Source: an uncultured bacterium (lineage in GTDB: Bacteria > Verrucomicrobiota > Lentisphaeria > Victivallales > UBA1829). From it: a stretch of DNA of 34,778 nucleotides. This document shows, piece after piece, positions 15,720-34,190 of the stretch. Both the position numbers and the translations under genes were made by a program. The DNA lies in the NCBI GenBank assembly GCA_949297765.1, contig CASFTV010000035.1, positions 1 to 34,778 on the forward strand, given 5' to 3'. The notes below the pieces were generated by a model. That model had not been told where the DNA came from. It saw only the letters and a list, made by a program, of their open reading frames with translations, and made no database searches. The number at the start of each line of letters is the position of its first letter. The first letter of the stretch is position 1.

Positions 15720-17339
15720 CTATTTCCGGACGCGGCGAATCACTCCGCAAAGATGCGGGAAAGCCACCAACGGCTGCCGGAAAAACAGATTCCAGAGCTT
15801 CCGTATTCTGGAATGATACTTTGAAACCAATGGAGACAGCAAACGGGTGCATATCGTTCCGTTCATCGGAGCGGAGCATCGTTTCAGCTCGGAGACCGTG
15901 AGGCCTCCCGGTTTCCGGAACAGCAGATTCCCGCGAATCCGGATCCGGCAGAAAGCAAACTCTTCCGGGAACGACGGATCAAAACTCTTTGCCGCCCCGG
16001 CAGATACGATCACGATACTCTCTTCGGAGCAGTTCTTCCACAAGGCCTCCGGTGAAGGAATCCGATTCCCGATGACGATCAGATCGCCCGGGGCGGGATG
16101 AACGATCTCCAGAGAGGGAAAGGTATGGACCGGCCCCACATGGTGCAGAGGTCCGAACGCATTGTCGTCCCGCCAGATTCTTTCATACGAGTCCTCCGTG
16201 TCAAAGGATTCATGAAGAAAGAGTTCCGAGAACGGAGCCGTCAGAGTCAGAAGGCTGACAATGGAACGGTCCATCGTTCCATAAAGGAAAATTCTTGCCG
16301 GGGAGAACTCGGATGCACACCGTGCGGCAAGCATCGCAGTCGAAGATATGAATGGAACTGCCGCGGGAGAAATCCGATGGGAAAGCCAGAGGATCCAGTC
16401 TCTCCACGAAAAAGCCGGCGGTTTTGACGGCGTTTCAGAAAGCTCATCCGTTCCGGCTTCCGCGCGGGATTCCGGCAGTTCCAGATCCGCCAGCCCCCAG
16501 GTCTCCGGGTTCTCCGCAACTCCTATATGAATGGGATAAAATGTTGTTCTTCGTTTTTCTTTCTGAATCAGCATGTGAAACGACGGTTCAAAATCATATG
16601 CACAAATTCCATACCCCATCGTATTGACGACCGAAGTCCGATTGGAAGACCGCAGAGCCAGATCGACATCATTATATCCCCACCCGGCGATCCGCTCGTC
16701 CACACCACGAAGGGAGAAAAAAACAGAGCGTTCCAGAATAAACAGCCCGTAGCTTCCCATCATGCTGCGGGCCGTGTTGTCGCAGAGCATCCACGCATCT
16801 CCTGCAAGCAGGAGAGATTCGATTCGTTCCGGAGAAGAAAAATCATGCGCTTCTCCTGCATAAAAGGGAATGTTTTTCCGGGGAACGGAAATCACCGCCT
16901 CCGCGGGATTGAAGGAAACAGGAATTTCTCCGGAAAGAATCCCCAGAAGATTCCGGAGAGCATGCGACGTCAGCAGAATATCACCAGGCATGATTCCCAG
17001 ATACGCCCCTTTTGCCCGGCGGAGAGCGGCATTGAACGCAATGGACTGGCTGAAGGGAGAAAACGGAGGATTGTATCCGGCGGCTAGAGCAGGCGGAATC
17101 TCAATAAAACGAACCATCCGCGCGGCTTCCGCGGAAAGATGGAGGGTCCGGGAGAGAGGAATCTCGCTGTTCCAATCGGCGAAAACGACTTCCAACTGCT
17201 CTGCGACGCCGGCCCGCCGGGCGCTCCACGCGAGAAAATTCATCGCCTGGACAAAACGCCGCTTGAAATTGAATCCGTAGTTGTCGTTGCGGCCGGAAAG
17301 ACAAAGAGAAAGGAGCGGGGGATTTTCTGTATTATTCAT
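15720..17339 (-). CDS. GT2-type glycosyltransferase with unknown C-terminal half
   Basis: The protein has 539 residues. The N-terminal 240 residues look like a GT-A fold transferase of the galactosyltransferase/chondroitin-polymerase type. This is shown by 'LSLCLSGRNDN', 'FNAALRRAKGAYLGIMPGD' (Asp120 probably in place of the DxD) and 'DERIAGWGYNDVDLALR' (214-230), the acceptor and metal motif of Glyco_transf_7C. Residues about 300-539 are not recognised; they contain alternating strands ('ARIFLYGTMDRSIVSLLTL', 'GDLIVIGNRIPS') suggesting a second Rossmann-like domain. The ATG at 17339 overlaps the stop of the upstream nucleotidyltransferase gene in an ATGA, indicating translational coupling. 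It is the last gene of the operon and ends before the shared terminator. Confidence 0.78.
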   Translation of the reverse strand: MNNTENPPLLSLCLSGRNDNYGFNFKRRFVQAMNFLAWSARRAGVAEQLEVVFADWNSEIPLSRTLHLSAEAARMVRFIEIPPALAAGYNPPFSPFSQSIAFNAALRRAKGAYLGIMPGDILLTSHALRNLLGILSGEIPVSFNPAEAVISVPRKNIPFYAGEAHDFSSPERIESLLLAGDAWMLCDNTARSMMGSYGLFILERSVFFSLRGVDERIAGWGYNDVDLALRSSNRTSVVNTMGYGICAYDFEPSFHMLIQKEKRRTTFYPIHIGVAENPETWGLADLELPESRAEAGTDELSETPSKPPAFSWRDWILWLSHRISPAAVPFISSTAMLAARCASEFSPARIFLYGTMDRSIVSLLTLTAPFSELFLHESFDTEDSYERIWRDDNAFGPLHHVGPVHTFPSLEIVHPAPGDLIVIGNRIPSPEALWKNCSEESIVIVSAGAAKSFDPSFPEEFAFCRIRIRGNLLFRKPGGLTVSELKRCSAPMNGTICTRLLSPLVSKYHSRIRKLWNLFFRQPLVAFPHLCGVIRRVRK

Positions 17340-18043
17340 TTCTGACAATCCGTTTTAAAAAGCTGCTGCGCCGTCTGAAAACTTTCCGGCGTTCCGATAT
17401 CGATGAATGTTCCGTCAGCGGGAAATGCGGCAAGTTCTCGGTTTTGCGCCAGAGAAGGGAACAGTTCCTTTTCCAGCGAACAGACGGTCTTTTCCGGAAT
17501 CCGTTCCAGGACCTCCCGGCGGAAACAGTAGATTCCGGCATTGATGAGTCCAGCGCCCCGGAATGATCCTTTTTCTTCAAAGCGGGAAACCATTCCATCG
17601 GGAGCAAGGGAAACTCTTCCGTAGCGGGAGACATCCTCCATGCGCCGCAGACAGATCGCAGCCGGCGCGGCGCTCCGGCGGGCGAAGGAGAGAAATGCGT
17701 TCAAGTCGACCTCAAAGTAAGAATCCCCGTTCATCACAAGGAATTCCGGATCGGAGGCTTGTTTCAGAGCAAGTCTCAACGCGCCGGCGGTTCCGAGAGG
17801 ACGATCTTCGATGGAAAACTTCAGATCGAGGGAGAGGGAGGCTCCCCGGAGCGCTGAGATCAGACTCTCCGCCCGATATCCGGCACACAGGATGACTCTC
17901 CGCCCGCCGGCCTGCTCAATCTGCCGCAGGAGGCGAAGGATAAATGGAGTTCCCGCCACTTCTGCTGCCACTTTCTGGCGATCGGGAACCGCAGTCTGCA
18001 GGCGAGTTCCCATTCCTCCGGCAAGGATCAGCGCCGTCAGCAT
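17336..18043 (-). CDS. hddC: HddC-like sugar-1-phosphate nucleotidyltransferase
   Basis: The protein has 235 residues from the ATG at 18043, which has GGAGG 7 bases upstream; the longer frame to 18073 lacks one. 'LILAGGMGTRL' (5-15) is the nucleotide-binding signature, with Lys24 in 'DRQKV', and 'SIEDRPLGTAGALRLAL' and 'VMNGDSY' (103-109) supplying the metal Asp. Best fit is D-glycero-alpha-D-manno-heptose 1-phosphate guanylyltransferase (HddC), which makes GDP-heptose. Glucose- or mannose-1-phosphate transferases share the fold, so the sugar is inferred mainly from the HddA-like kinase in the same operon. Its start codon is separated by one base from the FkbM gene stop, and its own stop overlaps the GT gene start. 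Confidence 0.8.
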   Translation of the reverse strand: MLTALILAGGMGTRLQTAVPDRQKVAAEVAGTPFILRLLRQIEQAGGRRVILCAGYRAESLISALRGASLSLDLKFSIEDRPLGTAGALRLALKQASDPEFLVMNGDSYFEVDLNAFLSFARRSAAPAAICLRRMEDVSRYGRVSLAPDGMVSRFEEKGSFRGAGLINAGIYCFRREVLERIPEKTVCSLEKELFPSLAQNRELAAFPADGTFIDIGTPESFQTAQQLFKTDCQK

Positions 18044-18044
18044 C

Positions 18045-19055
18045 TCATTCCTCCAACTCTTCCGGATATGCAATGAGTGTAATTTCTCCGTAGGGGACCT
18101 TCAAGGAGCGAATCCGGAACGAGTAATGCAGATTCATCTCCCGGAGGGTCTGATAAATCCCGAACAATTCCTCCGGATTATGATAAATGGAAAGCAGAAG
18201 AAGCGGCCGGAATGTCCGGATCGTTTTCATCGCGCCCCGAAGCATTTTCAGACCCATTCCTTCCAGATCCGCCTTGATCAGCCCGACGTCAAAAGAGCTT
18301 CCGACAAACGAATCCAGCGAAATCAGTTCGATCGGAATCCCGGATGAACCGGATTCAAGACAGGAGAAATCCATACCGCCTGAATCAGCGGTCTCAATCC
18401 GCTCTGAAACATCGGAAAGCCCCTTTTCAATCAGATCGAATTTTTTCTCTGAAATCCGATTTTTTTTCATGGTCTGTCGATACTTTTCCGCGTTCAGAGA
18501 AGACGGTTCAAAGGCATAGATCTTCCGAGGGGAATATTGCAGAAATGCGATGGAGGAATCTCCATTATAAGCTCCGGCATCAATAAAATCCTTATTCCGG
18601 ATATACTCTTTGACCGATTCCGGCACCATAGTCAACCCGTTGTGATAAACCAGCGATTCCGGAAAAGGTGGAGCAATATGATATCGCCTGCCCCATTTTC
18701 GGGAAAGGCGCTGTTCCTTCCGGAAAGTTTCCCGCAATCTTTTTTCCGGAATACATCCTTCCACGTCAAGACAAAAGAAAAAAGGTTCCGGAAAAGAAGG
18801 AAAACTATCCGGAATTTTTCTTTGAAATTCAACAAACTCTTTCAGCAGCGTCCGTTCTTTTTCCGTAACGTCGGAAAATACAGCATCAATCTCTTCCGCA
18901 GAGACATTGGAAAGGAGATTTCTACGCTCATTCAGATTAAGGAAAAGATATCTGTCCTGAAACGTTCCTTTCAGAATCTTCAACGCGGTTGCGGTTTCCA
19001 TCGACATTCGCCGCAGAAGGAAATCATGACAGGCCTTTTGAATTTTTTTTATCAT
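18045..19055 (-). CDS. FkbM-family methyltransferase
   Basis: The protein has 336 residues. The C-terminal half is an FkbM SAM-dependent methyltransferase: 'FIDAGAYNGDSSIAFL' (157-172) is motif I, 'KIYAFEPS' the acidic motif, then 'ISLDSF' and 'VGLIKADLEGMGLKMLRGA', the family's usual end. The first about 130 residues are a helical extension with no recognised domain. In polysaccharide loci these enzymes usually O-methylate sugars, here probably the operon's product or its glycan. GAGAGAAGA precedes the ATG, 12 bases after the stop of the previous gene. Base composition is lower in GC than most neighbours. Confidence 0.86.
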   Translation of the reverse strand: MIKKIQKACHDFLLRRMSMETATALKILKGTFQDRYLFLNLNERRNLLSNVSAEEIDAVFSDVTEKERTLLKEFVEFQRKIPDSFPSFPEPFFFCLDVEGCIPEKRLRETFRKEQRLSRKWGRRYHIAPPFPESLVYHNGLTMVPESVKEYIRNKDFIDAGAYNGDSSIAFLQYSPRKIYAFEPSSLNAEKYRQTMKKNRISEKKFDLIEKGLSDVSERIETADSGGMDFSCLESGSSGIPIELISLDSFVGSSFDVGLIKADLEGMGLKMLRGAMKTIRTFRPLLLLSIYHNPEELFGIYQTLREMNLHYSFRIRSLKVPYGEITLIAYPEELEE

Positions 19056-19067
19056 TCTTCTCTCTCT

Positions 19068-20036
19068 TCACCAGTAACATCCATCTTCCACGATCTCATA
19101 TCCCGTCGGCCGTTCGGAGGGCAGCGGATTCACCCAGTGCTCATTAAAAAGGCGCTGACCAAATTCCGGCGGATACTGTTTCTCCCAGCGGGCGCCCTTG
19201 ATTCCGAAAATCAGCTGCAGCGCTCCGCCGATATGAACAGCCTGTTTTCCGCAGCGCTTACAAAACGCGCCAAGAAACATTCCGTATGCTCCGGCTCCAA
19301 TCAAAGCGATGTCATAATCAATTTCCCGGATTTTTTCGTACATGGACTCCAAAGCCTCAAACCAGTCCGAATACGGAAATTGTTCCGAAAGGATTCCGTT
19401 GCTCTGAACGGCTTTCATCGTGATCAGTTCAAATTCCGGGAGGACCTCCCGACCGGGGAACAGCAGATCCCGGCGGGGATACTGCGAGCGGATGGTTTCT
19501 GTGAACGGATGAATCACCAGAACTTTTTTCCCTTTCAGCATTCGCAGCCATGGACGTTCCGCAAGAGTCGCATGATCCACAAGGCAGTTGATATCAACAG
19601 CTCGTATGGAGGGATTGTATTTCTGAATCAAGGTTTCTTCCCCTCGCTGACCTATTACACCGAGAATGTCGATTTCAGGAAGAAGCTGCAGACTCTCATA
19701 GGCAAACCGACAGAGTTTTTCATTCGTCGGAGGGAAAAAACCGGCAACTGTAGCCATCTCATTTTGTAGATATGGCTGGAATTGAACTGAACTTTCCCTG
19801 CAATGCTTCAAATAATGCATAACGACGGCAATCTCATTCCATCCGAAGCGGGCGATCAGACACGGATCTCCTTTTTCCAGCATCCGGGCAATCTGATCCA
19901 CGCCTTCCTGATCTTTATAGATATAACATTCCCCAAGAGACATTTTCGTCGGCCGATGTTCCGGACAACGAATATACGAATACACCTTCTGCACCTTTTG
20001 CGGAAGCAGATTCCAGATAAACTGTTTGATACTCAC
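19068..20036 (-). CDS. Uncharacterised polysaccharide-locus protein, possibly a GT-D-like transferase
   Basis: This 322-residue protein is not securely recognised. It begins at a GTG whose GTGA overlaps the stop of the radical SAM gene, with AGGAGA 6 bases upstream. It shows 'CLIARFGWNEIAVV' near residue 60, reminiscent of the 'RFGDGE' region of GT-D type glycosyltransferases, and 'DYDIALIGAGAYGMFLGAFCKRCGKQAVHIGG' near the C-terminus, a Rossmann-like segment with glycines. 'GGALQLIFGIKG' follows. A glycosyltransferase acting on the operon's sugar is plausible but is inference from context. No membrane segment or signal peptide is evident. Confidence 0.6.
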   Translation of the reverse strand: MSIKQFIWNLLPQKVQKVYSYIRCPEHRPTKMSLGECYIYKDQEGVDQIARMLEKGDPCLIARFGWNEIAVVMHYLKHCRESSVQFQPYLQNEMATVAGFFPPTNEKLCRFAYESLQLLPEIDILGVIGQRGEETLIQKYNPSIRAVDINCLVDHATLAERPWLRMLKGKKVLVIHPFTETIRSQYPRRDLLFPGREVLPEFELITMKAVQSNGILSEQFPYSDWFEALESMYEKIREIDYDIALIGAGAYGMFLGAFCKRCGKQAVHIGGALQLIFGIKGARWEKQYPPEFGQRLFNEHWVNPLPSERPTGYEIVEDGCYW

Positions 20037-21514
20037 GGTCTCTCTCCTGTTTCAGATAAAATGGCACGCTGCAGACGAAGCGTATTTACAGACTGAACAT
20101 AGTTGCGGACCTCCCTGCCGAATGTCCGTTTCAGCATTTCCAGATACTCCGGGCTGCTGTTGTATTCCACAAAAGCCTGATCCCGGAAAGCCAGAATCTC
20201 CCCGGCGGTCAGACGGTCGTTCGCAAGCGGATAACAATCGTAAGAGTGCTGGGAATAGGCGCTCCAGCTGCGCGGAAGCCGCTCCGGATGCGTACGCAGA
20301 GTCTCTTCGTACAGCCGCGATCCCGGATACGCCATCACCGAATACATATTGGCATATTCGCAATTCAGATCCCTGGCCAGCTCCAGCGTTTCCCGCATGG
20401 TCTCCTCCGTATCGGCGGGAAGACCGAAAATATAATTGCCGATCACACGAATCCCCGCCGACTGAATCCGCCGGACCACCCGTTTGATGTCCTCTCTGTG
20501 CAGATTTTTTGTCACGTCATCCCGCACATGCGGATTTGCAGACTCAATGCCCAGCGCAAACCAGTTGATCCCCGCCTTCTTCAGCAGCGGAAGAACCTCG
20601 AAATCCACCGTATCGACCCGCGCATACACCCAGATGTTCAGGTCGTAATTGCGTTCAATGATTCCATTCACAATCGGCATGTAGTGGTTTTTATCCAGAA
20701 TGAACAGTTCATCGACTATTTTCAGATTCTTTACATGATACCGCTCCACCAGAAGATCAATCTCCTCCAGGACCCGTTCCGGAGAACGGTAGCGGATCAT
20801 ATGCTTCCCGAACGGGGCGTTGATGCAGCAGAACGAACAGTTGAACGGACAGCCAAGACTCGTATACAATGCCGCATACGGCATCCGGTGTTCGATATCA
20901 TCGAAACAGTGCCAGTTGTGCGCGCGGTAAAGCTGCATCGGCAGGAGGTCCCACGCGGCAACCGGGAGAAATGCGTCCAGATCCCGGATCAGCGGATAGC
21001 GCTCCGTATGACGCGGACCGGTATCCGTCCTCCACCAGAAACCACCGATCTTTTCCGGTTCGAACCTCCCTGTTCTCAGCTGTTCGAGCAAAGTTTCCAG
21101 AGTCTGAACCGCCTCTCCGTCTGCGACGAAATCACAGGCTTCCTCCCGCAGGGTCCGCTCCGGAAGCGCCGAGGGATGCAATCCTCCCAGAACCACGTTC
21201 GGAACCCCGGCCGTCTTCAGCGCCCTGCAGATCGCGCCCGCGGACGGCATGTTCTGTGTTGATGCGGACGGCTGGGATCCATAGACGATCACCGCCGCTG
21301 CCCGCGGATTCATTTCTGCCGTCCGCTCCGCGGTCTCTTCCGGAGAAAGGTTTTCCGCATTTGCGTCGATCACCGCCACAGAGAATCCCTTCAAACGCAA
21401 ATACGCGGCAATCACAGCGATCCAGAAGGGCGGCTCAATCGCAACCGCCTCCAGCCCAAGACTCTGGAAAACCTGTTTTCTGTTCCCAGGATTGATCAGG
21501 ATAATATCTGTCAT
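20033..21514 (-). CDS. B12-binding-domain radical SAM enzyme
   Basis: The protein has 493 residues. Residues about 1-150 form a Rossmann-type cobalamin-binding domain ('VLGGLHPSALPER', 'EEACDFVADGEA'). The radical SAM barrel follows with 'SLGCPFNCSFCC', whose Cys222, Cys226 and Cys229 bind the 4Fe-4S cluster. 'GIESANPHVRDDVTK' and 'VIGNYIFGLPADTEETMRETLELA' are typical of class B enzymes. Such enzymes methylate unactivated carbons or phosphorus, or rearrange or epimerise substrates. In a sugar operon a C-methylation or epimerisation of the sugar is a reasonable guess. AAGGGAAG precedes the ATG; 45 bp separate it from the transketolase genes, and its stop overlaps the next start. Confidence 0.87.
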   Translation of the reverse strand: MTDIILINPGNRKQVFQSLGLEAVAIEPPFWIAVIAAYLRLKGFSVAVIDANAENLSPEETAERTAEMNPRAAAVIVYGSQPSASTQNMPSAGAICRALKTAGVPNVVLGGLHPSALPERTLREEACDFVADGEAVQTLETLLEQLRTGRFEPEKIGGFWWRTDTGPRHTERYPLIRDLDAFLPVAAWDLLPMQLYRAHNWHCFDDIEHRMPYAALYTSLGCPFNCSFCCINAPFGKHMIRYRSPERVLEEIDLLVERYHVKNLKIVDELFILDKNHYMPIVNGIIERNYDLNIWVYARVDTVDFEVLPLLKKAGINWFALGIESANPHVRDDVTKNLHREDIKRVVRRIQSAGIRVIGNYIFGLPADTEETMRETLELARDLNCEYANMYSVMAYPGSRLYEETLRTHPERLPRSWSAYSQHSYDCYPLANDRLTAGEILAFRDQAFVEYNSSPEYLEMLKRTFGREVRNYVQSVNTLRLQRAILSETGERP

Positions 21515-21559
21515 AATCTTCCCTTACTGCTTACAAGTACATTTCATCATATTTTTCAT

Positions 21560-22492
21560 TTATCTTGATCCTTTCATCAATTCATGAATTTGTTCGGAAG
21601 AAATACCCAATCTTGAACGCAGCTCTTTTCTTGAAGGACTTCCATAAACAAATTCATTGTCAGGGGCCCCGAATCGAAGGATTTCCGGGATATGACTCAA
21701 ACGAGAACCATACTCTGCAAGAATCTGACAGAAATGCCCAAATACTCCTCCATATTTCAAAGATTCTTCAAATATTACAATCTTTTCCGATTGTTTTAAT
21801 ATTGTGAGCGCTGTTTCTCTATCAAAGGGTTCCATCGTATGATAATGAAAAAAACCTGGAGGATTCACACTGCTTTTATATTCCAGAATAGCGGGAGCTA
21901 CCGCAGAAAAGACCTCTCCTCCCGTTACAAAGGAAATTCTTCCTGCTGGCAAAATACAACGGGCGTTCCCTAAAGAAATCGGAGCAGTTTCTATATATCC
22001 AACGTCTGGTTCCCCATATTTTCCGACTCGTAAATATGCCGCACATTCCTTCTGCAACAATGTAGAAAATAAAATTTTCATTTCATCCGGTCCGCCAGGT
22101 GTAACAACAATTTCTCCCGGGAGAGCAGTCATAAGCATGAGATCATCCGGAGCATAGTGGGTCACTCCTGCATTGGCATAGGTATATCCACCTCCCGCTC
22201 CGACCACAATTACAGGGAGTTTATGATAGGAAACTGCCACCTTCAGCTGTTCATATGGACGGGATGTCATAAACGAAGCTATCGAGTAGACAACCGGACG
22301 AAAACCTTCTAATGCGAGACCCGCAGCAGCATTCACAAGTTGAGCTTCTGCGATTCCAACATTAACAAAACGTTTTGGAAATCTCTGTGCGATGGAATCG
22401 AAAACCTGAAACCCCAGATCGCCCGTCAGAAAAACAATTTTTTCATTGCGTTCCATTTCGGTTTCCAAGACATCAGCAAATGCCTTTCTCAT
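21560..22492 (-). CDS. Split transketolase-like enzyme, C-terminal (pyrimidine-binding) subunit
   Basis: The protein has 310 residues from the ATG at 22492, which overlaps the stop of the N-terminal subunit in an ATGA. It corresponds to the pyrimidine-binding and C-terminal domains of transketolase. 'FVNVGIAEAQLVNAAAGLALEG' carries the ThDP-activating Glu49, 'YTYANAGVTHYAPDDLMLMTALPG' is the substrate-side loop, and the remainder is the transketolase C domain ('VIFEESLKYGG'). Together with its partner it would transfer a two-carbon ketol or acyl unit. GC content is clearly low (21 of 60 bases G or C at 21601-21660), unlike the GC-rich SDR upstream, suggesting separate acquisition. Confidence 0.88.
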   Translation of the reverse strand: MRKAFADVLETEMERNEKIVFLTGDLGFQVFDSIAQRFPKRFVNVGIAEAQLVNAAAGLALEGFRPVVYSIASFMTSRPYEQLKVAVSYHKLPVIVVGAGGGYTYANAGVTHYAPDDLMLMTALPGEIVVTPGGPDEMKILFSTLLQKECAAYLRVGKYGEPDVGYIETAPISLGNARCILPAGRISFVTGGEVFSAVAPAILEYKSSVNPPGFFHYHTMEPFDRETALTILKQSEKIVIFEESLKYGGVFGHFCQILAEYGSRLSHIPEILRFGAPDNEFVYGSPSRKELRSRLGISSEQIHELMKGSR

Positions 22493-23331
22493 ACATATTC
22501 TCCCAGTTTGCAAGGCAATGCCAGTTCCTCAAATGCCTGTTTAACCTCATTTTCCCGTGGCGTACGGTAGAACCATACTTGATCTTTCTCCATAAAATGG
22601 ATACCGGCTCCTCCGGTTGTATCTGCAAGAATTACAACAGGCCATTTTTCAATCGAATTCAAACGGGCAAAAATTTGAAGAAGTTCTCCAATGTCATTTC
22701 CATTACATGAAATTACAGTCCAGCCAAAGCTGGCGAATTTCTCCGCCAATGAAGTGTTTCCCGTCAAATGATCATTCAATGATGTAGCCTGCATATTGTT
22801 ATGATCTACGATCGCAACAAGATTTTTCAGTTTCTGAGCCGCTGCAAACATGGCCGCTTCCCATACACTCCCCTCATTTGTTTCTCCATCCCCCATCAGA
22901 ACAAATGCACGACTTTCAAAATCATCGTTCATCTGGCATCCCATCAACATGCCGGAAGCCATACCAAGCCCGTAGCCAAGACTCCCGCTCGAAAATTCCA
23001 AAAGAGGAAACATTGTTCGACATGGATGATTTGACAATCGTGAATCTGTTTGACAATATGTTCCCAATTCTTTTTTCTGAATCAGAGAAAACTCCGCCAT
23101 TGCGGCATAAAGGGCACTCGCTGCATGGCCTTTGCTTAAGAAAAAACGATCCCTCTTTTTTATGCTCTTCTCTGTTGGATGTTTCAGGACTGCGCCAAAA
23201 AGGACGGTCAACAAATCTGCACAACTCAAAGCCGAACTCAAATGAGAAGATTTTCCTGAAAAAGCCATCATAATGCAGTTCCCTCGAATTCGGGCTGCAC
23301 TTTTCTGCAAAGATTCTAACAATTCATCCAT
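22489..23331 (-). CDS. Split transketolase-like enzyme, N-terminal (ThDP-binding) subunit
   Basis: The protein has 280 residues from the ATG at 23331, preceded by AGGAGA at 8 bases; an in-frame extension to 23391 lacks support. It has the diphosphate-binding motif 'GDGETNEG' (147-154) and 'VDHNN' (175-179), 'SKGHAASALYAAMAE' (66-80) with the substrate His, and 'FSSGSLGYGLGMASG' (113-127). Its length equals the N-terminal half of transketolase. Split transketolases occur in core metabolism of some anaerobes, but this pair sits inside a sugar-nucleotide operon, which points to a dedicated role. AT-rich codon use sets it apart from the two preceding genes. Confidence 0.88.
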   Translation of the reverse strand: MDELLESLQKSAARIRGNCIMMAFSGKSSHLSSALSCADLLTVLFGAVLKHPTEKSIKKRDRFFLSKGHAASALYAAMAEFSLIQKKELGTYCQTDSRLSNHPCRTMFPLLEFSSGSLGYGLGMASGMLMGCQMNDDFESRAFVLMGDGETNEGSVWEAAMFAAAQKLKNLVAIVDHNNMQATSLNDHLTGNTSLAEKFASFGWTVISCNGNDIGELLQIFARLNSIEKWPVVILADTTGGAGIHFMEKDQVWFYRTPRENEVKQAFEELALPCKLGEYV

Positions 23332-23353
23332 ATACCATTCTCCTATCCGGTCC

Positions 23354-24292
23354 TCAGACGTTGCCGTACTGGTTGTTCTTGATGATGGCATAGGTTTTTA
23401 TCAGCTCTTCAATTCCGTCATCGAGGGAATACTTCGGCAGATATCCGGTCTTCTCTATCTTTTCGTTGGAGACGATGTAGTCACGCTTGTCGGGATCCTC
23501 TCCGATCTTCGACTCCAGATACACAAACCGGGGCAGATGCTTCCGGATCACCTCGCACAGCTCCAGCTTGGAGAGATTCGCCGTGGAAAGACCGACATTG
23601 TATGCGTTCCCCTTCATCGCGGAAAAATTCTCGATCACATGCGCAAACGCCCGCGCAACATCCCGCACATGAATGTAATTGCGCTTGAAATGGCCTTCAA
23701 AAATCACCACCGCACGGTCGTTCACCGCGCGATAGACAAAATCATTCACCAGAAGATCCATCCTCATCCGGGGACTCGCGCCGAACACCGTCGCAAGACG
23801 CAGACTCACACTGTTCTCCCGGGAGAGCACCGCCTCCTCCGCCTCCACCTTCACCCGGCCGTACAGGGAGACCGGACGCAGCGGCGTCTCCTCTGTACAG
23901 AACTTCCCGCTCTCCCCGATTCCGTATCCGGAGTTCGTGATCGGCATCACTATCTGCTGCTCCGGAGAAGCCAGACGGACCAGCATCCGGACCGCATCGC
24001 GGTTCACCGTCACCGCCCCCACCTTGTCCTGGTCGCAGAGCGGAGCGCCGACCAGCGCCGCAAGCGGAATGAGAATGTCGAACCGGGGAACCAGCTCCTT
24101 CATCAGCGACTCATCCCGGCAGTCCCCCCGCACCACATGAAATTTCGGATGGGCGCAGCAGTCAAGCAGGGAGTTCTGACGGAACATGAAATTATCCAGC
24201 ACCGTCACTTCGTATCCGAGGGAGAGCAGATACGGCGTCATTGTCGAACCGAGATAGCCGCCTCCCCCCGTAATTAAAATCGTCTGACTCAT
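23354..24292 (-). CDS. Extended-SDR NAD-dependent epimerase/dehydratase
   Basis: This 312-residue sugar-nucleotide SDR has 'ILITGGGGYLGS' (5-16) for NAD binding, 'ITNSGYGIGESG' (118-129, with Ser121), and catalytic 'SLYGRVK' (Tyr144, Lys148). 'GDCRDESLM' provides the adenine-site Asp and 'RNYIHVRDVARAFAHVI' is a family hallmark. Such enzymes oxidise C4 to drive epimerisation, dehydration or reduction. Together with the other SDR in the operon it may work as a C4-oxidase or 4-reductase on GDP-heptose, as proposed for pairs in Campylobacter heptose loci. GAGGTGATGG precedes the ATG; 3 bases separate it from the DegT gene. Confidence 0.88.
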   Translation of the reverse strand: MSQTILITGGGGYLGSTMTPYLLSLGYEVTVLDNFMFRQNSLLDCCAHPKFHVVRGDCRDESLMKELVPRFDILIPLAALVGAPLCDQDKVGAVTVNRDAVRMLVRLASPEQQIVMPITNSGYGIGESGKFCTEETPLRPVSLYGRVKVEAEEAVLSRENSVSLRLATVFGASPRMRMDLLVNDFVYRAVNDRAVVIFEGHFKRNYIHVRDVARAFAHVIENFSAMKGNAYNVGLSTANLSKLELCEVIRKHLPRFVYLESKIGEDPDKRDYIVSNEKIEKTGYLPKYSLDDGIEELIKTYAIIKNNQYGNV

Positions 24293-24295
24293 CCA

Positions 24296-25468
24296 TCACC
24301 TCGCTTGATTGAGTATCCGGCAAAGCTCCGACACGCGTTCCGGCGGGAGCGTCGGATAGTTTCCTATGTAATATCCGAATTCATGAATATGTTCCACCTC
24401 GGGATACTTCCGGTATTCATCCGGCGGAACGATTCCCTTCAAATACGGCTGACGGAGCTGGTTGCCTCCGCCCGCGTTCCCTCTGCGGAATTCGATCCGG
24501 AATTCCCGCATCCGGGATTCCAGACGGTCCCGGAAAGCAAAATCCTTTTCGCGGATCACCAGCGGAAACGCATAGTTGGACGATCCCTCCAGACGAAACT
24601 CCGTCCGGAAGCGAACCGAATCAATCTCCTCCAGAAACTGATGGAAATTCCGGCTTCTCAGACGGTTGTTCGCATCCAGACGTCCGAGCTGGGAAAGCCC
24701 AAGCACCCCTCCGATCTCCGTCCCGCGGAAATTGCAGGACGGAACCAGAAATGTGAAATCCGGCGACACCAGCGGATTTTCCTGCGCAATCGCTGCCTTC
24801 CGTTCCGGATCTGAAATCTCCCGCGCCATCCCGTGGGAACGGTACATCCGGACCGCTTCATAAAAATCATCGGAATCCGTACACACCATCCCCCCCTCGA
24901 TCGTGCTCATGTGGTGTGCAAAGTAAAACGAAAAATCCGATGCCAGACCGAACGATCCGAGCTTTTTCCCGTTGTGGGTCGCCCCATGCGATTCGCAGAC
25001 ATCCTCGATCAGCGGAATATTCCGCCGTTTCAGCTCCTCCAGAAGACGGTCGCTCAACGCATCGAATCCCTGCACATGCGTAAGGAACACTGCGCGGGTC
25101 CGGTCGGTCACCGCCTCCAGAATCTTCTCTTCCGCCATTCCGAGATGATGCGGATCAATATCCGCGAACACGGGCGTGAATCCATGCAGCAGCACCGATG
25201 AAATATCGGAAACCCACGTCAGCGGCGGGACAATGATCTCTCCTCCCCCTCCGTACAGATATTGGAATGCGCCGATCGTGATAAAATTCGCCGAAGCGCC
25301 CGAATTCACATACACACTGTGCTTTACGCCGAGCCAGCGGCTCCAGGCGCGCTCAAATTCGGCAACCCGTGCCGACTGGGTCAGACGCGGCATGGTCTCC
25401 AGAAATGCGATCACCGCGTTGATATCTTCCCGTGTGATATTATCGTTCATCAGGGGGAACGGTTCCAT
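24296..25468 (-). CDS. DegT-fold PLP enzyme with His at the lysine site (ColD/RfbH-like sugar 3-dehydratase)
   Basis: The protein has 390 residues, the normal length for DegT/DnrJ/EryC1/StrS proteins. 'YVNSGASANFITIGAF' (53-68) binds the PLP phosphate and 'PLIEDVCESHGATHNGKKLG' (152-171) holds the PLP-ring Asp156 and the stacking region. Aminotransferases of this fold have a Schiff-base Lys in 'SFxxxKxxxxGEGG'; here the segment reads 'FSFYFAHHMSTIEGG' (179-193), so His185 replaces Lys. That substitution is the mark of ColD and CDP-sugar E1 (RfbH) 3-dehydratases, which deoxygenate C3 of 4-keto sugars. The start has GGAGGTGCCTG upstream and its A is shared with the stop of the kinase gene (TGATG). 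Confidence 0.87.
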   Translation of the reverse strand: MEPFPLMNDNITREDINAVIAFLETMPRLTQSARVAEFERAWSRWLGVKHSVYVNSGASANFITIGAFQYLYGGGGEIIVPPLTWVSDISSVLLHGFTPVFADIDPHHLGMAEEKILEAVTDRTRAVFLTHVQGFDALSDRLLEELKRRNIPLIEDVCESHGATHNGKKLGSFGLASDFSFYFAHHMSTIEGGMVCTDSDDFYEAVRMYRSHGMAREISDPERKAAIAQENPLVSPDFTFLVPSCNFRGTEIGGVLGLSQLGRLDANNRLRSRNFHQFLEEIDSVRFRTEFRLEGSSNYAFPLVIREKDFAFRDRLESRMREFRIEFRRGNAGGGNQLRQPYLKGIVPPDEYRKYPEVEHIHEFGYYIGNYPTLPPERVSELCRILNQAR

Positions 25469-26454
25469 CAGGCACCTCCGTTGAATACAATTCCCGAGCC
25501 GTCCATTTCAAAATCGAACGGCACATTCAAAAATCCGCTGAGCGCCTCCAGGACCCGGGTTCTCCGGTCGGGAGGAACAAAGAACAGCATGAAGCCGCCC
25601 GCTCCCGCGCCGAGCAGTTTTCCGCCGAGCGCTCCCGCGGAGCGGGCCTTCTCATAAACGCCGTCCAGATAGTCCGAGGAGATCTTCGAAGAGAGTCCCC
25701 GTTTGATCTTCCACGCCTCGTGGAGCAGATGTCCGAATTCCGAGAGATCGGCATCGGAGCGCAGCAGTTCATCCGCCCGTCCCGCCATCTCCGAAAGCTC
25801 GTTCAGCATCGACGCATTCGCACGGATCCGGCTTTTCTGTTCGGCCGCCACCTGAGAGGAGATCCGGCTGATCCCCGTATAGATCAGAAGAAGCGACGAC
25901 TTCAGTTCATCCAGACGGGGCTGTTCCAGATCCAGCGGCAGAACCCGGAACGATCCGTTCCGGTGAAACTGAATCAGATTCAATCCTCCGTACGCACAGC
26001 TGATCTGGTCCTGGCAGCCGACCGTCTCCCGGATCATCTCCTGTTCAATATGAATTGCCGTTTCCGCCAGAAGCCGTTTGGAGGCGTGTCTTCCGGTCAG
26101 GGCGAACATGCTGTTCAGCAGGCCGACGGTGAACGCGGAACTGGAACCGATTCCGCTCCGTGCGGGAATATCCCCGTCGTGAATCACCGAAATCCCCTCC
26201 GGAAGATTGAAGTATTTCAGCACCGCGCGGATCGACGGATGCTGAATGTCGTCCATCTCCCGGATGTTTTCGATCCGCGAATACACCGCGCGGTACTTGT
26301 GGTCGAAAAACGGCGGAAGTTTACGGACATTGAGAAAACAGTATTTATTGATCGCGCAGGCAAGGACCCTGCTTCCATATTCACGGAAATGCTCCGGAAA
26401 ATCGCTCCCGCCTCCGAAAAACGAAATCCGGTAAGGAGTTCTTGAAATAATCAT
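25468..26454 (-). CDS. hddA: HddA-like D-glycero-D-manno-heptose 7-phosphate kinase (GHMP family)
   Basis: This 328-residue GHMP kinase starts 'MIISRTPYRISFFGGGSDFP', closely matching HddA enzymes (usual GGGTD/GGGSD). The ATP loop is 'PARSGIGSSSAFTVGLLNSM' (97-116), and 'GALGGKLLGAGAGGFMLFF' is the C-terminal GHMP motif. HddA phosphorylates C1 of heptose 7-phosphate in the route to GDP-D-glycero-alpha-D-manno-heptose. The isomerase GmhA and phosphatase GmhB needed before and after it are not in this window. AGGAG precedes the ATG, which overlaps the stop of the upstream SDR gene (ATGA). L-fucose and related kinases share the fold and cannot be strictly excluded. Confidence 0.83.
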   Translation of the reverse strand: MIISRTPYRISFFGGGSDFPEHFREYGSRVLACAINKYCFLNVRKLPPFFDHKYRAVYSRIENIREMDDIQHPSIRAVLKYFNLPEGISVIHDGDIPARSGIGSSSAFTVGLLNSMFALTGRHASKRLLAETAIHIEQEMIRETVGCQDQISCAYGGLNLIQFHRNGSFRVLPLDLEQPRLDELKSSLLLIYTGISRISSQVAAEQKSRIRANASMLNELSEMAGRADELLRSDADLSEFGHLLHEAWKIKRGLSSKISSDYLDGVYEKARSAGALGGKLLGAGAGGFMLFFVPPDRRTRVLEALSGFLNVPFDFEMDGSGIVFNGGA

Positions 26455-27395
26455 ACCGTTCTCCTTTCCCGTCCGGCGCGGTACTCTTCGATCATGGCGC
26501 GGATTCCCTCCTCCAGAGAAATGACCGGACGAAGCGGGGAAACCGACCGGAATGCGGAACTGTCCAGCAGTTTGCGGGCGATTCCGTCCGGTCTGGAATG
26601 ATCCCAGCGGATGGCGCCGTGGTATCCCGCACAGGCGGCGATCCGTTCCGCAAGTTCCCGGATTCCGATCTCCTCCGAGGATCCGATGTTGAGCGGTGCG
26701 GGATCCTCCCGGTTTTCAAACAGACTGCATGCGATCCGCGCGAAATCGTCCACATTGAGGAACTCCCGTTTCGGCGCACCGGTTCCCCAGCAGACGACTT
26801 CCTCTGCGTCCGAATCGGCCGCGTCGCAGAAGCGGCGGACCATCGCCGCCATCACATGGGAACGCTCCGGTTCGAAATGATCGTTCCGCCCGTAAAGGCA
26901 GCAGGGAATGAGCGTGATCGTCCGGAAGCCGTACTGCCGGCTCAGATACTGACAGAGACGCAGACCGGCAAGTTTGGCGAGCGCATAGCCTTCATTGGTC
27001 GGTTCCGGGGGACCGGCGAGAAGCGATTCCTCATGGAACGGCTGCGGCGCGTCTTTCGGATAGATGCAGTTGCTCGCCAGAAAGCAGAGTTTCTTCACAC
27101 CGTTTTTCCATGCGCTGGAGATCACATTGTTCTGGATCTGAAGGTTTTCCAGCAGGAATTCCGCCATGAATTCGCGATTTGCCGAAATCCCGCCGACCTT
27201 CGCCGCCGCAAGAATCACATATTCGGGACGCTCCTCGCGGACGAAGTGTTCCACTGCCGCGGCATCCCGCAGATCCAGTTCGGAATGGGTTCTCAGCAGA
27301 AAACCGGAATATCCCGACTCAGAGAATTTCCGAAGAAGTGCGCTGCCGACCATTCCGGTATGTCCGGCGATCCACAGTCTGGCGTTTTTTTGCAT
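26451..27395 (-). CDS. GDP-L-fucose-synthase-like SDR (Fcl/WcaG family)
   Basis: The protein has 314 residues. 'IAGHTGMVGSAL' (9-20) is the characteristic NADP loop. 'AAAKVGGISANREFMAEFLLENLQIQNN' spans 63-90, and 'FLASNCIYPKDAPQPF' (105-120) keeps the catalytic Ser108 and Cys110. 'EPTNEGYALAKLAGLRLCQ' has Tyr137 and Lys141. Classic members epimerise C3/C5 and reduce C4 of GDP-4-keto-6-deoxymannose; heptose-locus homologues do parts of this on GDP-heptose. No GDP-mannose 4,6-dehydratase is in the window, so a heptose substrate fits better than fucose. It is the first gene of the operon, with only a weak ribosome site (GGAA). Confidence 0.86.
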   Translation of the reverse strand: MQKNARLWIAGHTGMVGSALLRKFSESGYSGFLLRTHSELDLRDAAAVEHFVREERPEYVILAAAKVGGISANREFMAEFLLENLQIQNNVISSAWKNGVKKLCFLASNCIYPKDAPQPFHEESLLAGPPEPTNEGYALAKLAGLRLCQYLSRQYGFRTITLIPCCLYGRNDHFEPERSHVMAAMVRRFCDAADSDAEEVVCWGTGAPKREFLNVDDFARIACSLFENREDPAPLNIGSSEEIGIRELAERIAACAGYHGAIRWDHSRPDGIARKLLDSSAFRSVSPLRPVISLEEGIRAMIEEYRAGRERRTV

Positions 27396-30066: not shown

Positions 30067-31035
30067 TCAGCGCCGGCAGGGACCGGTCGACGAGCGGATA
30101 TGGAGAATGTTCGGGATGCGGATGGAACCGCCTTCCTCCCCTTTGCCGAGCATCCGCAGACGGAGTTCCTCCAGTGCGCGTTTTGCAATCGTTTCATAAT
30201 CAAAATCCACGGTTGTATGGGGCGGGGTCAGATATTCGGAGATCCCGGGAAGCTCATAAGTGACAAGAGAACAATCTTCCGGAATGCGGTATCCTGCTTC
30301 CTGAATGAATTTTGCCGCATGGACCGCCAGACTCTGATGAATCATGTAAACCGCCGTGAATTTTTCTGAAAGGATGGAGCGGAATGTTTCCCAGCGCTCC
30401 ATCTCCTGCGGGGAGGATAACTGGAAATTGCGGACGGAATCCCCCAGATTCAGCTGTGCGGCGGCTTGCAGAAACTCTTTCTCCCCGCGACGGTAGTTTG
30501 TCTGCATTTCGCTGACAAAATGGACTCGAGCAATTTTCCGGTGTCCGAGTTTTTTCAGATGGCGGAGTACGATCCGGCTTTCCTGGAGGGGATCCGGATC
30601 CACGGAGCAGATCCGGTCGAACACGGTCCCGTAGCTGTTGACCATCACCAGCGGAATGGAACGCTCCTCCACCCACGTCCGCGCCCAGGCCTGATTGTAG
30701 ATCAGAGAAACAACGCCATCGTAAAAATACGGAGAAACCGATTTCAGGGAGGTTTCCGGAATAATCTGACAGATCCAGTTTCGTCCGGCGCTCTCATTGA
30801 TCAGGGCATCCAGCATCCGCTGGGAGTATATTCCGCCGATCCCCTGAGCGATCACCGCGATGCGGACCTGATGGCGGTTTGCGGTGTTCCGGTAGTTGAG
30901 TCTTGCGGCGGCATTCAGAATCCGGGCGCGGACCTCCGGTGCAACATTGGCTTTGCCGTTGAACGTCCGCGAAACCTGCGGACGCGAACAGCCCGCCTCC
31001 CGGGCAAGATCCTCCATTGTAACTTTCCGAGTCAC
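30067..31035 (-). CDS. LacI-family transcriptional regulator, copy A
   Basis: The protein has 322 residues starting at GTG 31035. GTG is chosen because AAGGAG lies at the same distance upstream in both copies, whereas the upstream ATG codons lie before that site. The HTH is 'VTMEDLAREAGCSRPQVSRTFNG' (5-27), followed by the hinge helix 'RILNAAARLNY'. The periplasmic-binding-like sensing domain follows, with 'GVVSLIYNQAW', 'SIPLVMVNSYG', 'LKKLGHRKIARVHFV' and 'PEDCSLVTYE'. The protein is about 89% identical to copy B by eye. It is divergent from the GH36-like gene at 31212 and probably represses it. The inducer is presumably a sugar. Confidence 0.9.
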   Translation of the reverse strand: MTRKVTMEDLAREAGCSRPQVSRTFNGKANVAPEVRARILNAAARLNYRNTANRHQVRIAVIAQGIGGIYSQRMLDALINESAGRNWICQIIPETSLKSVSPYFYDGVVSLIYNQAWARTWVEERSIPLVMVNSYGTVFDRICSVDPDPLQESRIVLRHLKKLGHRKIARVHFVSEMQTNYRRGEKEFLQAAAQLNLGDSVRNFQLSSPQEMERWETFRSILSEKFTAVYMIHQSLAVHAAKFIQEAGYRIPEDCSLVTYELPGISEYLTPPHTTVDFDYETIAKRALEELRLRMLGKGEEGGSIRIPNILHIRSSTGPCRR

Positions 31036-31082
31036 GGGAACATTCTCCTTCCGGAAACTACAATGCCACATCATGTTCCTCT

Positions 31083-33126: not shown

Positions 33127-34095
33127 TCATCTCCGGCAGGGACCGGTCGACGAGCGGATCCTGAGAATATTCGGAATGCGGATGGAACCGCCTTCCTCCC
33201 CTTTGCCGAGCATCCGCAGACGGAGTTCCTCCAGTGCGCGATGCGCGATTTTCTCATAACAAAAATCAACGGTTGTGTGCGGAGGGGTCAGATATTCGGA
33301 AATTCCGGGGAGTTCATAGGTGACAAGAGAACAATCTTCCGGAATGCGGTATCCTGCTTCCTGAATGAATTTTGCCGCATGGACCGCCAGACTCTGATGG
33401 ATCATGTAAAACGCCGTGAATTTTTCTGAAAGAATGGAGCGGAATCTTTCCCAGCGCTCCTTCTTCTGCAGGAAGGAGATCTGGAAATTGCGCGCGGAAT
33501 CCCCCAGATTCAGCTGGGCGGCCGCCTGAAGGAACTCTTTTTCACCGCGGCGGTATGCGGACTGTTCTCCGTAGACAAAATGGATGCGGGCGATCTTCCG
33601 GTGTCCCAGTTTTTTCAGGTGCTGAAGAACGATCCGGCTTTCCTGGAGAGGATCCGGATCAACGGAACAGATCTGATCGAACACGGTTCCGTAGCTGTTG
33701 ACCATCACCAGCGGAATCGACCGTTCCTCCATCCATTTCCGAGCCCAGACACGATTGTAAATCAGGGAAATGACTCCGTCGTAGAAATACGGAGAAACCG
33801 ATTTCAGGGCGGTTTCCGGAATAATCTGACAGATCCAGTTTCGTCCGGCTGTCTCATTGATCAGGGCATCCAGCATCCGCTGAGAGTATATTCCGCCGAG
33901 CTCCTGAGCGATCACCGCGATACGAATCTGATGGCGGTTTGCAGTGTTCCGGTAGTTGAGTCTTGCGGCGGCCTCCAGGACACGGGCGCGGATCTCCGGT
34001 GCAACATTGGCTTTGCCGTTGAACGCCCGAGAAACCTGCGGACACGAACAGCCCGCCTCCCGGGCAAGATCCTCCATTGTCACTTTCCGAGTCAC
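33127..34095 (-). CDS. LacI-family transcriptional regulator, copy B
   Basis: The protein has 322 residues with GTG start at 34095, AAGGAG upstream, and the same length as copy A. The HTH is 'VTMEDLAREAGCSCPQVSRAFNG', so residue 18 is Cys where copy A has Arg; this aligns with Tyr17 of E. coli LacI, a main operator-contact residue. Differences also cluster in the sensing domain (for example 'RIHFVYGEQSAYRRG' against 'RVHFVSEMQTNYRRG'). Both copies are intact and apparently functional. This one is divergent from the pseudopilin-like gene at 34258 and may control it, while copy A faces the GH36-like gene. Confidence 0.9.
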   Translation of the reverse strand: MTRKVTMEDLAREAGCSCPQVSRAFNGKANVAPEIRARVLEAAARLNYRNTANRHQIRIAVIAQELGGIYSQRMLDALINETAGRNWICQIIPETALKSVSPYFYDGVISLIYNRVWARKWMEERSIPLVMVNSYGTVFDQICSVDPDPLQESRIVLQHLKKLGHRKIARIHFVYGEQSAYRRGEKEFLQAAAQLNLGDSARNFQISFLQKKERWERFRSILSEKFTAFYMIHQSLAVHAAKFIQEAGYRIPEDCSLVTYELPGISEYLTPPHTTVDFCYEKIAHRALEELRLRMLGKGEEGGSIRIPNILRIRSSTGPCRR

Positions 34096-34190
34096 AGACT
34101 GATTCTCCTTCCGGAAACTACAATGCCACATCATGTTCCTCTTGTCAAGTCATTGTTCATTTTATTTCAGTGTTTTTCGACGAAAAGGGG

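Follow-up and report, generated by a model that had tools for sequence, protein, structure and literature searches.

The split transketolase (TK) pair at positions 21560 to 23331 of the window, which is the 34,778-nt stretch analyzed here (contig CASFTV010000035.1 of GCA_949297765.1, positions 1 to 34,778), probably acts as a ThDP-dependent two-carbon carboligase that adds a C4 branch in a GDP-heptose pathway, and this copy appears to have come from another lineage. Judged from sequence, the pair would fill a near-obligate ThDP position in the branching pathway and would not be an add-on to it.

Split transketolase genes and their operon

The pair is encoded on the minus strand by two genes. 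The N subunit (22489 to 23331, with its start ATG at 23331) carries the ThDP pyrophosphate domain with the GDG...N motif; it matched Pfam Transketolase_N (2e-29), and its top PDB match was the split-chain TK 6yak (2.5e-51). The C subunit (21560 to 22492) carries the pyrimidine-binding and C-terminal domains with the activating Glu within GIAE; it matched Transket_pyr (7e-23) and Transketolase_C (5e-7), and its top PDB match was 6yaj (1.6e-23). Both frames are intact and are translationally coupled, overlapping via ATGA (22489 to 22492). The domains and the retained cofactor motifs place the pair in the split form of the transketolase superfamily, and an earlier note on this DNA had read both subunits in the same way. 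One full-length TK (666 amino acids) and one DXS (625 amino acids) are encoded elsewhere in the genome, and the split pair is therefore not its sole TK. Together with the GDP-heptose-type polysaccharide loci that hold the nearest TK relatives, this bears out the note's proposal of a role outside core metabolism. A search with a defence library gave no match, and the only mobile-element trace near the pair, with no tRNA nearby, was a perfect 16-nt palindromic repeat, TTCTCCCGGGAGAGCA, at 22112 to 22127 (in the C subunit gene) and 23814 to 23829 (in the SDR gene). This repeat pair may be due to chance.

The pair is located between an SDR gene (23354 to 24292), previously called an epimerase, and a radical SAM gene, as the note stated, and all operon genes described here are on the minus strand. 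The top PDB match of the SDR was 6vo6, which we take to be Campylobacter jejuni Cj1427 (388.9 bits across residues 1 to 311, the full length). The TNS.YG and YxxxK motifs were retained in 71 of 71 SDR relatives, and the full-length close homology together with the catalytic YxxxK assigns the SDR to the Cj1427 type of GDP-heptose C4-dehydrogenase. The adjoining gene (24296 to 25468) encodes a DegT-fold protein whose top PDB match was ColD (2gms, 1.3e-45). An AHH motif, in which His replaces the PLP Schiff-base Lys, was found in 81 of 81 DegT relatives, as expected for a ColD-like C3-dehydratase; an aminotransferase role for this protein was rejected because the Lys is absent.

Further upstream are a GHMP kinase gene (25468 to 26454), which resembles the heptose-7-phosphate 1-kinase HddA (NCBIfam, 3.4e-40), and the first gene of the operon (26451 to 27395), which encodes a GDP-L-fucose-synthase-like protein with PDB matches to GDP-fucose synthases (NCBIfam Fcl, 8.8e-109) and is the candidate pathway reductase. 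Downstream of the pair, the HddC-like sugar-1-phosphate nucleotidylyltransferase gene (17336 to 18073) matched the NCBIfam models for HddC (2.2e-39) and mannose-1-phosphate guanylyltransferase (3.8e-46). Because the model scores of the kinase, nucleotidylyltransferase, and reductase all lie under the cut-offs, we infer their exact activities. The GmhA and GmhB matches in the genome were likewise under cut-off. The radical SAM enzyme (20033 to 21514), B12-binding according to Pfam, showed weak PDB matches to AprD4 and B12 methylases and has relatives in 59 of the 80 related loci described below; its candidate roles are C-methylation, deoxygenation, or ring closure. The operon also contains genes for an FkbM methyltransferase (18045 to 19055) and a GT-D-like glycosyltransferase (19068 to 20036), both assigned by Pfam, and for a possible glycosyltransferase (15720 to 17348) with a weak GT2 match (Pfam E = 0.001, under cut-off). 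Outside the operon, two LacI-family regulators (30067 to 31074 and 33127 to 34134) flank a GH31-like gene.

The split pair was not found in three same-genus genomes, and neither were the dehydratase and the SDR of the operon; the whole operon is therefore accessory. A plasmid search with the dehydratase returned just one distant match (32%).

ThDP enzymes in related loci

GTDB genomes were scanned with the dehydratase, which yielded 80 loci from many phyla carrying the same gene set as the window operon. Of these loci, 36 had a split TK at the ThDP position, 11 had a PDH-E1 alpha/beta pair, and 24 had a miniature E1 pair, so that an E1-type pair was present in 35 of the 80. Each of the 71 pairs lay no more than 300 bp from a core gene. 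Of the 53 loci that were well covered (5 kb or more before the dehydratase and 3.5 kb or more after it), 52 had a ThDP pair. One locus (L110) held a partial TK at a contig edge, and L133, L152, and L153, whose neighbourhoods are open, showed no ThDP gene.

The split TK and E1 classes were never found together in one locus (0 of 80; Fisher 1.2e-14, a value that ignores the relatedness of the loci). The dehydratase tree, several branches of which are weak, implied at least eight changes of ThDP type, and these repeated changes are better evidence than the Fisher value.

The miniature E1 pairs are unusually small for E1-type enzymes and lack the Transketolase_C domain; the two that were read, in L089 (8694 to 9838) and L147 (8775 to 9946), have chains of about 200 and 178 amino acids, and such pairs are also found in 22 other loci. 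A sister clade of split TKs was observed in other sugar loci (L159, L161, L163, L165, L166, and L168), where its genes often adjoin that of a general SDR, with genes for a nucleotidylyltransferase-like protein and for a small conserved protein (motif VHKxTKRDYxARV) close by. This clade is a candidate for a second TK sugar pathway.

Base composition and origin of the pair

The two TK genes showed GC contents of 0.429 and 0.426 and GC3 values of 0.381 and 0.318, compared with 0.55 to 0.59 and 0.65 to 0.73, respectively, for the five adjoining operon genes. The GC3 values ranked at 1.3% and 0% among 238 own-genome ORFs, which were drawn by length alone, and the composition statistics were based on 400 kb sampled from the genome. 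The hand counts of G+C in the earlier note, 21 of 60 at 21601 to 21660 and 44 of 60 at 24001 to 24060, were exact, and the differing composition along the operon that it described was confirmed. The top-scoring low-GC segment of the whole window in a maximum-scoring segment analysis (21468 to 23463, score 68) corresponds to the TK pair. Patches of low GC are not unusual for this genome: 5 of 20 own-genome samples of 20 kb contained a segment with a score of at least 50. Composition is thus supportive but not decisive, and it was rejected as lone proof of transfer. A second, milder low-GC segment in the same operon (18424 to 20104) covers the FkbM methyltransferase and GT-D genes.

In the tree, the window TK was placed in a group (starred; SH-aLRT 100) with L157/L183 and L158/L112. 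The N subunit of L157/L183 is 49% identical to that of the window, and this locus (GC 0.42) contains a Cj1427-like SDR, GHMP kinases, an HddC-like gene, and a SIS-domain gene that was judged by eye to be GmhA-like. The window dehydratase groups elsewhere, with L074, L079, L081, and L083 (support, 88). The first three of these loci match the window in gene order, and the TK that they carry in the corresponding position belongs to a different clade. Trees constrained to put the window TK inside the main module TK clade were rejected (AU p = 0.0054), as were those with both the window TK and L158 placed there (AU p = 5e-5).

The composition dip and the odd tree placement could also come from fast evolution of a native copy with no transfer. 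The long branch of the window TK (1.19) and the frequency of low-GC patches in the genome are consistent with such an origin. However, GC3 (0.32 to 0.38) shifts at the borders of the gene pair, grouping of the window TK with those of loci that have the same gene order was rejected (AU p = 0.005), and there are same-genus genomes without the module, the operon itself being accessory. We therefore consider a native, fast-evolving copy unlikely. Composition and tree incongruence together point to a foreign origin of the window pair, which we regard as likely and not as certain because the TK and dehydratase trees were quick trees with long branches. Because its gene order is common to L074, L079, and L081, the window copy most likely replaced an older TK in the conserved ThDP position and was not a first insertion. 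The earlier suggestion that the pair was inserted from a different source and added a step to the pathway thus holds for the source and fails for the added step: with a ThDP enzyme in 52 of 53 well-covered loci and, in loci of the same gene order, an other-clade TK at the same place, exchange of the copy reads better than a new step.

Catalytic role of the pair

As a ThDP carboligase, the pair could act at another step, for example on an aldehyde, at some other keto position, or ahead of the dehydratase. The content of L183, together with L195 and L196 (G372), fits this alternative: a window-type TK is accompanied there by two HddA-like kinases and an SDR of the Cj1427 kind, and no ColD-like dehydratase was found within the 45 kb read. 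In some loci, the TK adjoins the SDR or the kinase instead of the dehydratase. However, a Cj1427-like C4-dehydrogenase accompanied the TK in all seven TK-bearing genomes tested, and the C3-dehydratase is present in the 36 TK loci, which argues for a 4-keto acceptor. Action at another step is therefore improbable.

The active-site residues were compared using yeast TK numbering, and we assume that the yeast residue roles apply to the aligned positions. The H469 position is Gly in all module TKs, and the D477 position is Ala or Ser in all but one, which has Asp. The window TK has Gly, Ala, and Lys at the positions of H469, D477, and R528, which sets it apart from housekeeping sugar-phosphate TKs, and its aldose-phosphate acceptor site is predicted to be altered. 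The change of H469 to Gly is not specific to the module because Gly is also found in many split TKs outside it. The split TK of Carboxydothermus hydrogenoformans (6yak/6yaj) has the same two-chain architecture and is the nearest solved sequence; it retains the THAG, DGxSH, and RxGR motifs, whereas the C subunit of the window has altered versions of them.

These residues bear on the possibility that the pair is a pathway-dedicated TK supplying sedoheptulose-7-phosphate, from which GDP-heptose derives. A split TK may well be a true transketolase, as the names given to 6yak and 6yaj indicate, and the operon starts from a heptose. Nevertheless, H469 and D477 are lost, a full-length TK is present elsewhere in the genome, and E1 pairs, which from their known chemistry should not form sedoheptulose-7-phosphate, are found at the same position in 35 of 80 loci. 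As E1 pairs substitute for the TK, this supply role was rejected as the main reading, and we give it little probability. Because PDH-E1 is not expected to make sedoheptulose-7-phosphate, the function shared at this position is most simply the transfer of a two-carbon unit to a 4-keto sugar.

The donor may differ between TK clades. The main module clade has H30 replaced by Arg (28 of 28 readable sequences) and H103 by Ile (29 of 29), which cautiously suggests a lost recognition of the donor C1 hydroxyl and an acetyl-like donor. Members in which both replacements are fixed include L074, L079, and L096, and their donor may be something other than a ketose. Window-type TKs retain H30, H69, and H103 and, with the same caution, may have kept C1-hydroxyl recognition and a hydroxyacetyl donor. 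The H263 position is Phe in the window TK alone, and this change and the long branch may indicate reduced or altered activity; a decaying or inactive insertion, for which the same two features could be cited, is very improbable given the intact, translationally coupled frames and the full set of retained cofactor motifs.

Proposed pathway and known systems

Cj1427 is a GDP-D-glycero-manno-heptose C4-dehydrogenase (PMC10680097), and with a C3-dehydratase it yields GDP-D-glycero-3-deoxy-4-keto-heptose in vitro (PMC10680097; PMC10440746). By analogy, the HddA-like kinase and HddC-like guanylyltransferase would form GDP-D-glycero-manno-heptose, the Cj1427-like SDR would oxidize it at C4, and the ColD-like protein would remove the C3 hydroxyl to give GDP-3-deoxy-4-keto-heptose. 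The TK pair would load onto ThDP a two-carbon unit, most probably a hydroxyacetyl group donated by a ketose, and join it to the C4 ketone, which would give a nine-carbon sugar with a C4 branch. The product would be finished by a reductase, possibly with a contribution from the B12 radical SAM enzyme. We infer the substrate, donor, product, and order of steps from the encoded homologues. The C. jejuni system of GDP-heptose modification (Cj1427, C3-dehydratase, and Cj1428) has homologues of the kinase, guanylyltransferase, C4-dehydrogenase, C3-dehydratase, and reductase; in contrast to the window operon, a transketolase is unmentioned in PMC10680097, and 3-deoxy-4-keto-D-glycero-heptose was made there in vitro only.

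Enzyme-made branched sugars are already known. YerE of yersiniose synthesis, like ErwE of erwiniose synthesis, is a ThDP enzyme of surface-polysaccharide synthesis that attaches a carbon branch to a 3-deoxy-4-keto sugar nucleotide. YerE belongs to the decarboxylase superfamily and uses pyruvate and CDP-3,6-dideoxy-4-keto-glucose (PMC12247030), whereas the window pair has TK domains only and would use GDP-heptose; it may work like YerE-type branching enzymes without being a member of them. Besides the class of YerE, branching of keto sugars is known or has been proposed for two ThDP classes, PDH-E1-type enzymes and split TKs (PMC12247030). The alpha-KADH2 enzymes, for example those of aldgamycin and kibdelomycin synthesis, are PDH-E1-like alpha/beta ThDP pairs that make two-carbon branches, comparable to the E1-type pairs at the position in 35 of 80 loci. 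The window pair differs in its GDP-heptose polysaccharide setting and in being a TK: its N chain scored 103 bits with Transketolase_N and 35.9 bits with E1_dh, the family expected to match best in an alpha-KADH2 alpha chain. A similar chemistry, hydroxyacetyl transfer onto a keto sugar, has been proposed for the split-gene TKs of miharamycin and amipurimycin. The examples that PMC12247030 lists are from Streptomyces antibiotic clusters, with none characterized in vitro, whereas the TKs described here are in polysaccharide loci of many phyla.

In a bolder and less likely reading, interchangeable ThDP enzymes might set the branch of nine-carbon GDP-heptose sugars, and exchange of the ThDP gene might alter the surface sugar. 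E1-type enzymes, and perhaps the TK clade with Arg and Ile at H30 and H103, would transfer acetyl from pyruvate, and window-type TKs would transfer hydroxyacetyl. The E1 version combined with ring closure by the B12 radical SAM enzyme might then produce caryose-like carbocyclic sugars. Caryose is a 4,8-cyclo-3,9-dideoxy-nonose (PMC9026286), and C1 to C7 could be read as a 3-deoxyheptose and C8 and C9 as an acetyl branch. The literature searched contained no description of caryose biosynthesis genes or of a GDP-heptose branching gene set with interchangeable ThDP enzymes.

Biological implications

If the preferred reading of the pair as a C4-branching carboligase is true, genes could be named for branched nine-carbon surface sugars in loci of many phyla. 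The operon would also provide a testable polysaccharide setting for sugar branching by split TKs, which has so far been proposed only for Streptomyces antibiotics. Two ThDP classes would repeatedly swap at one pathway position, which may be a route to surface-glycan diversity.
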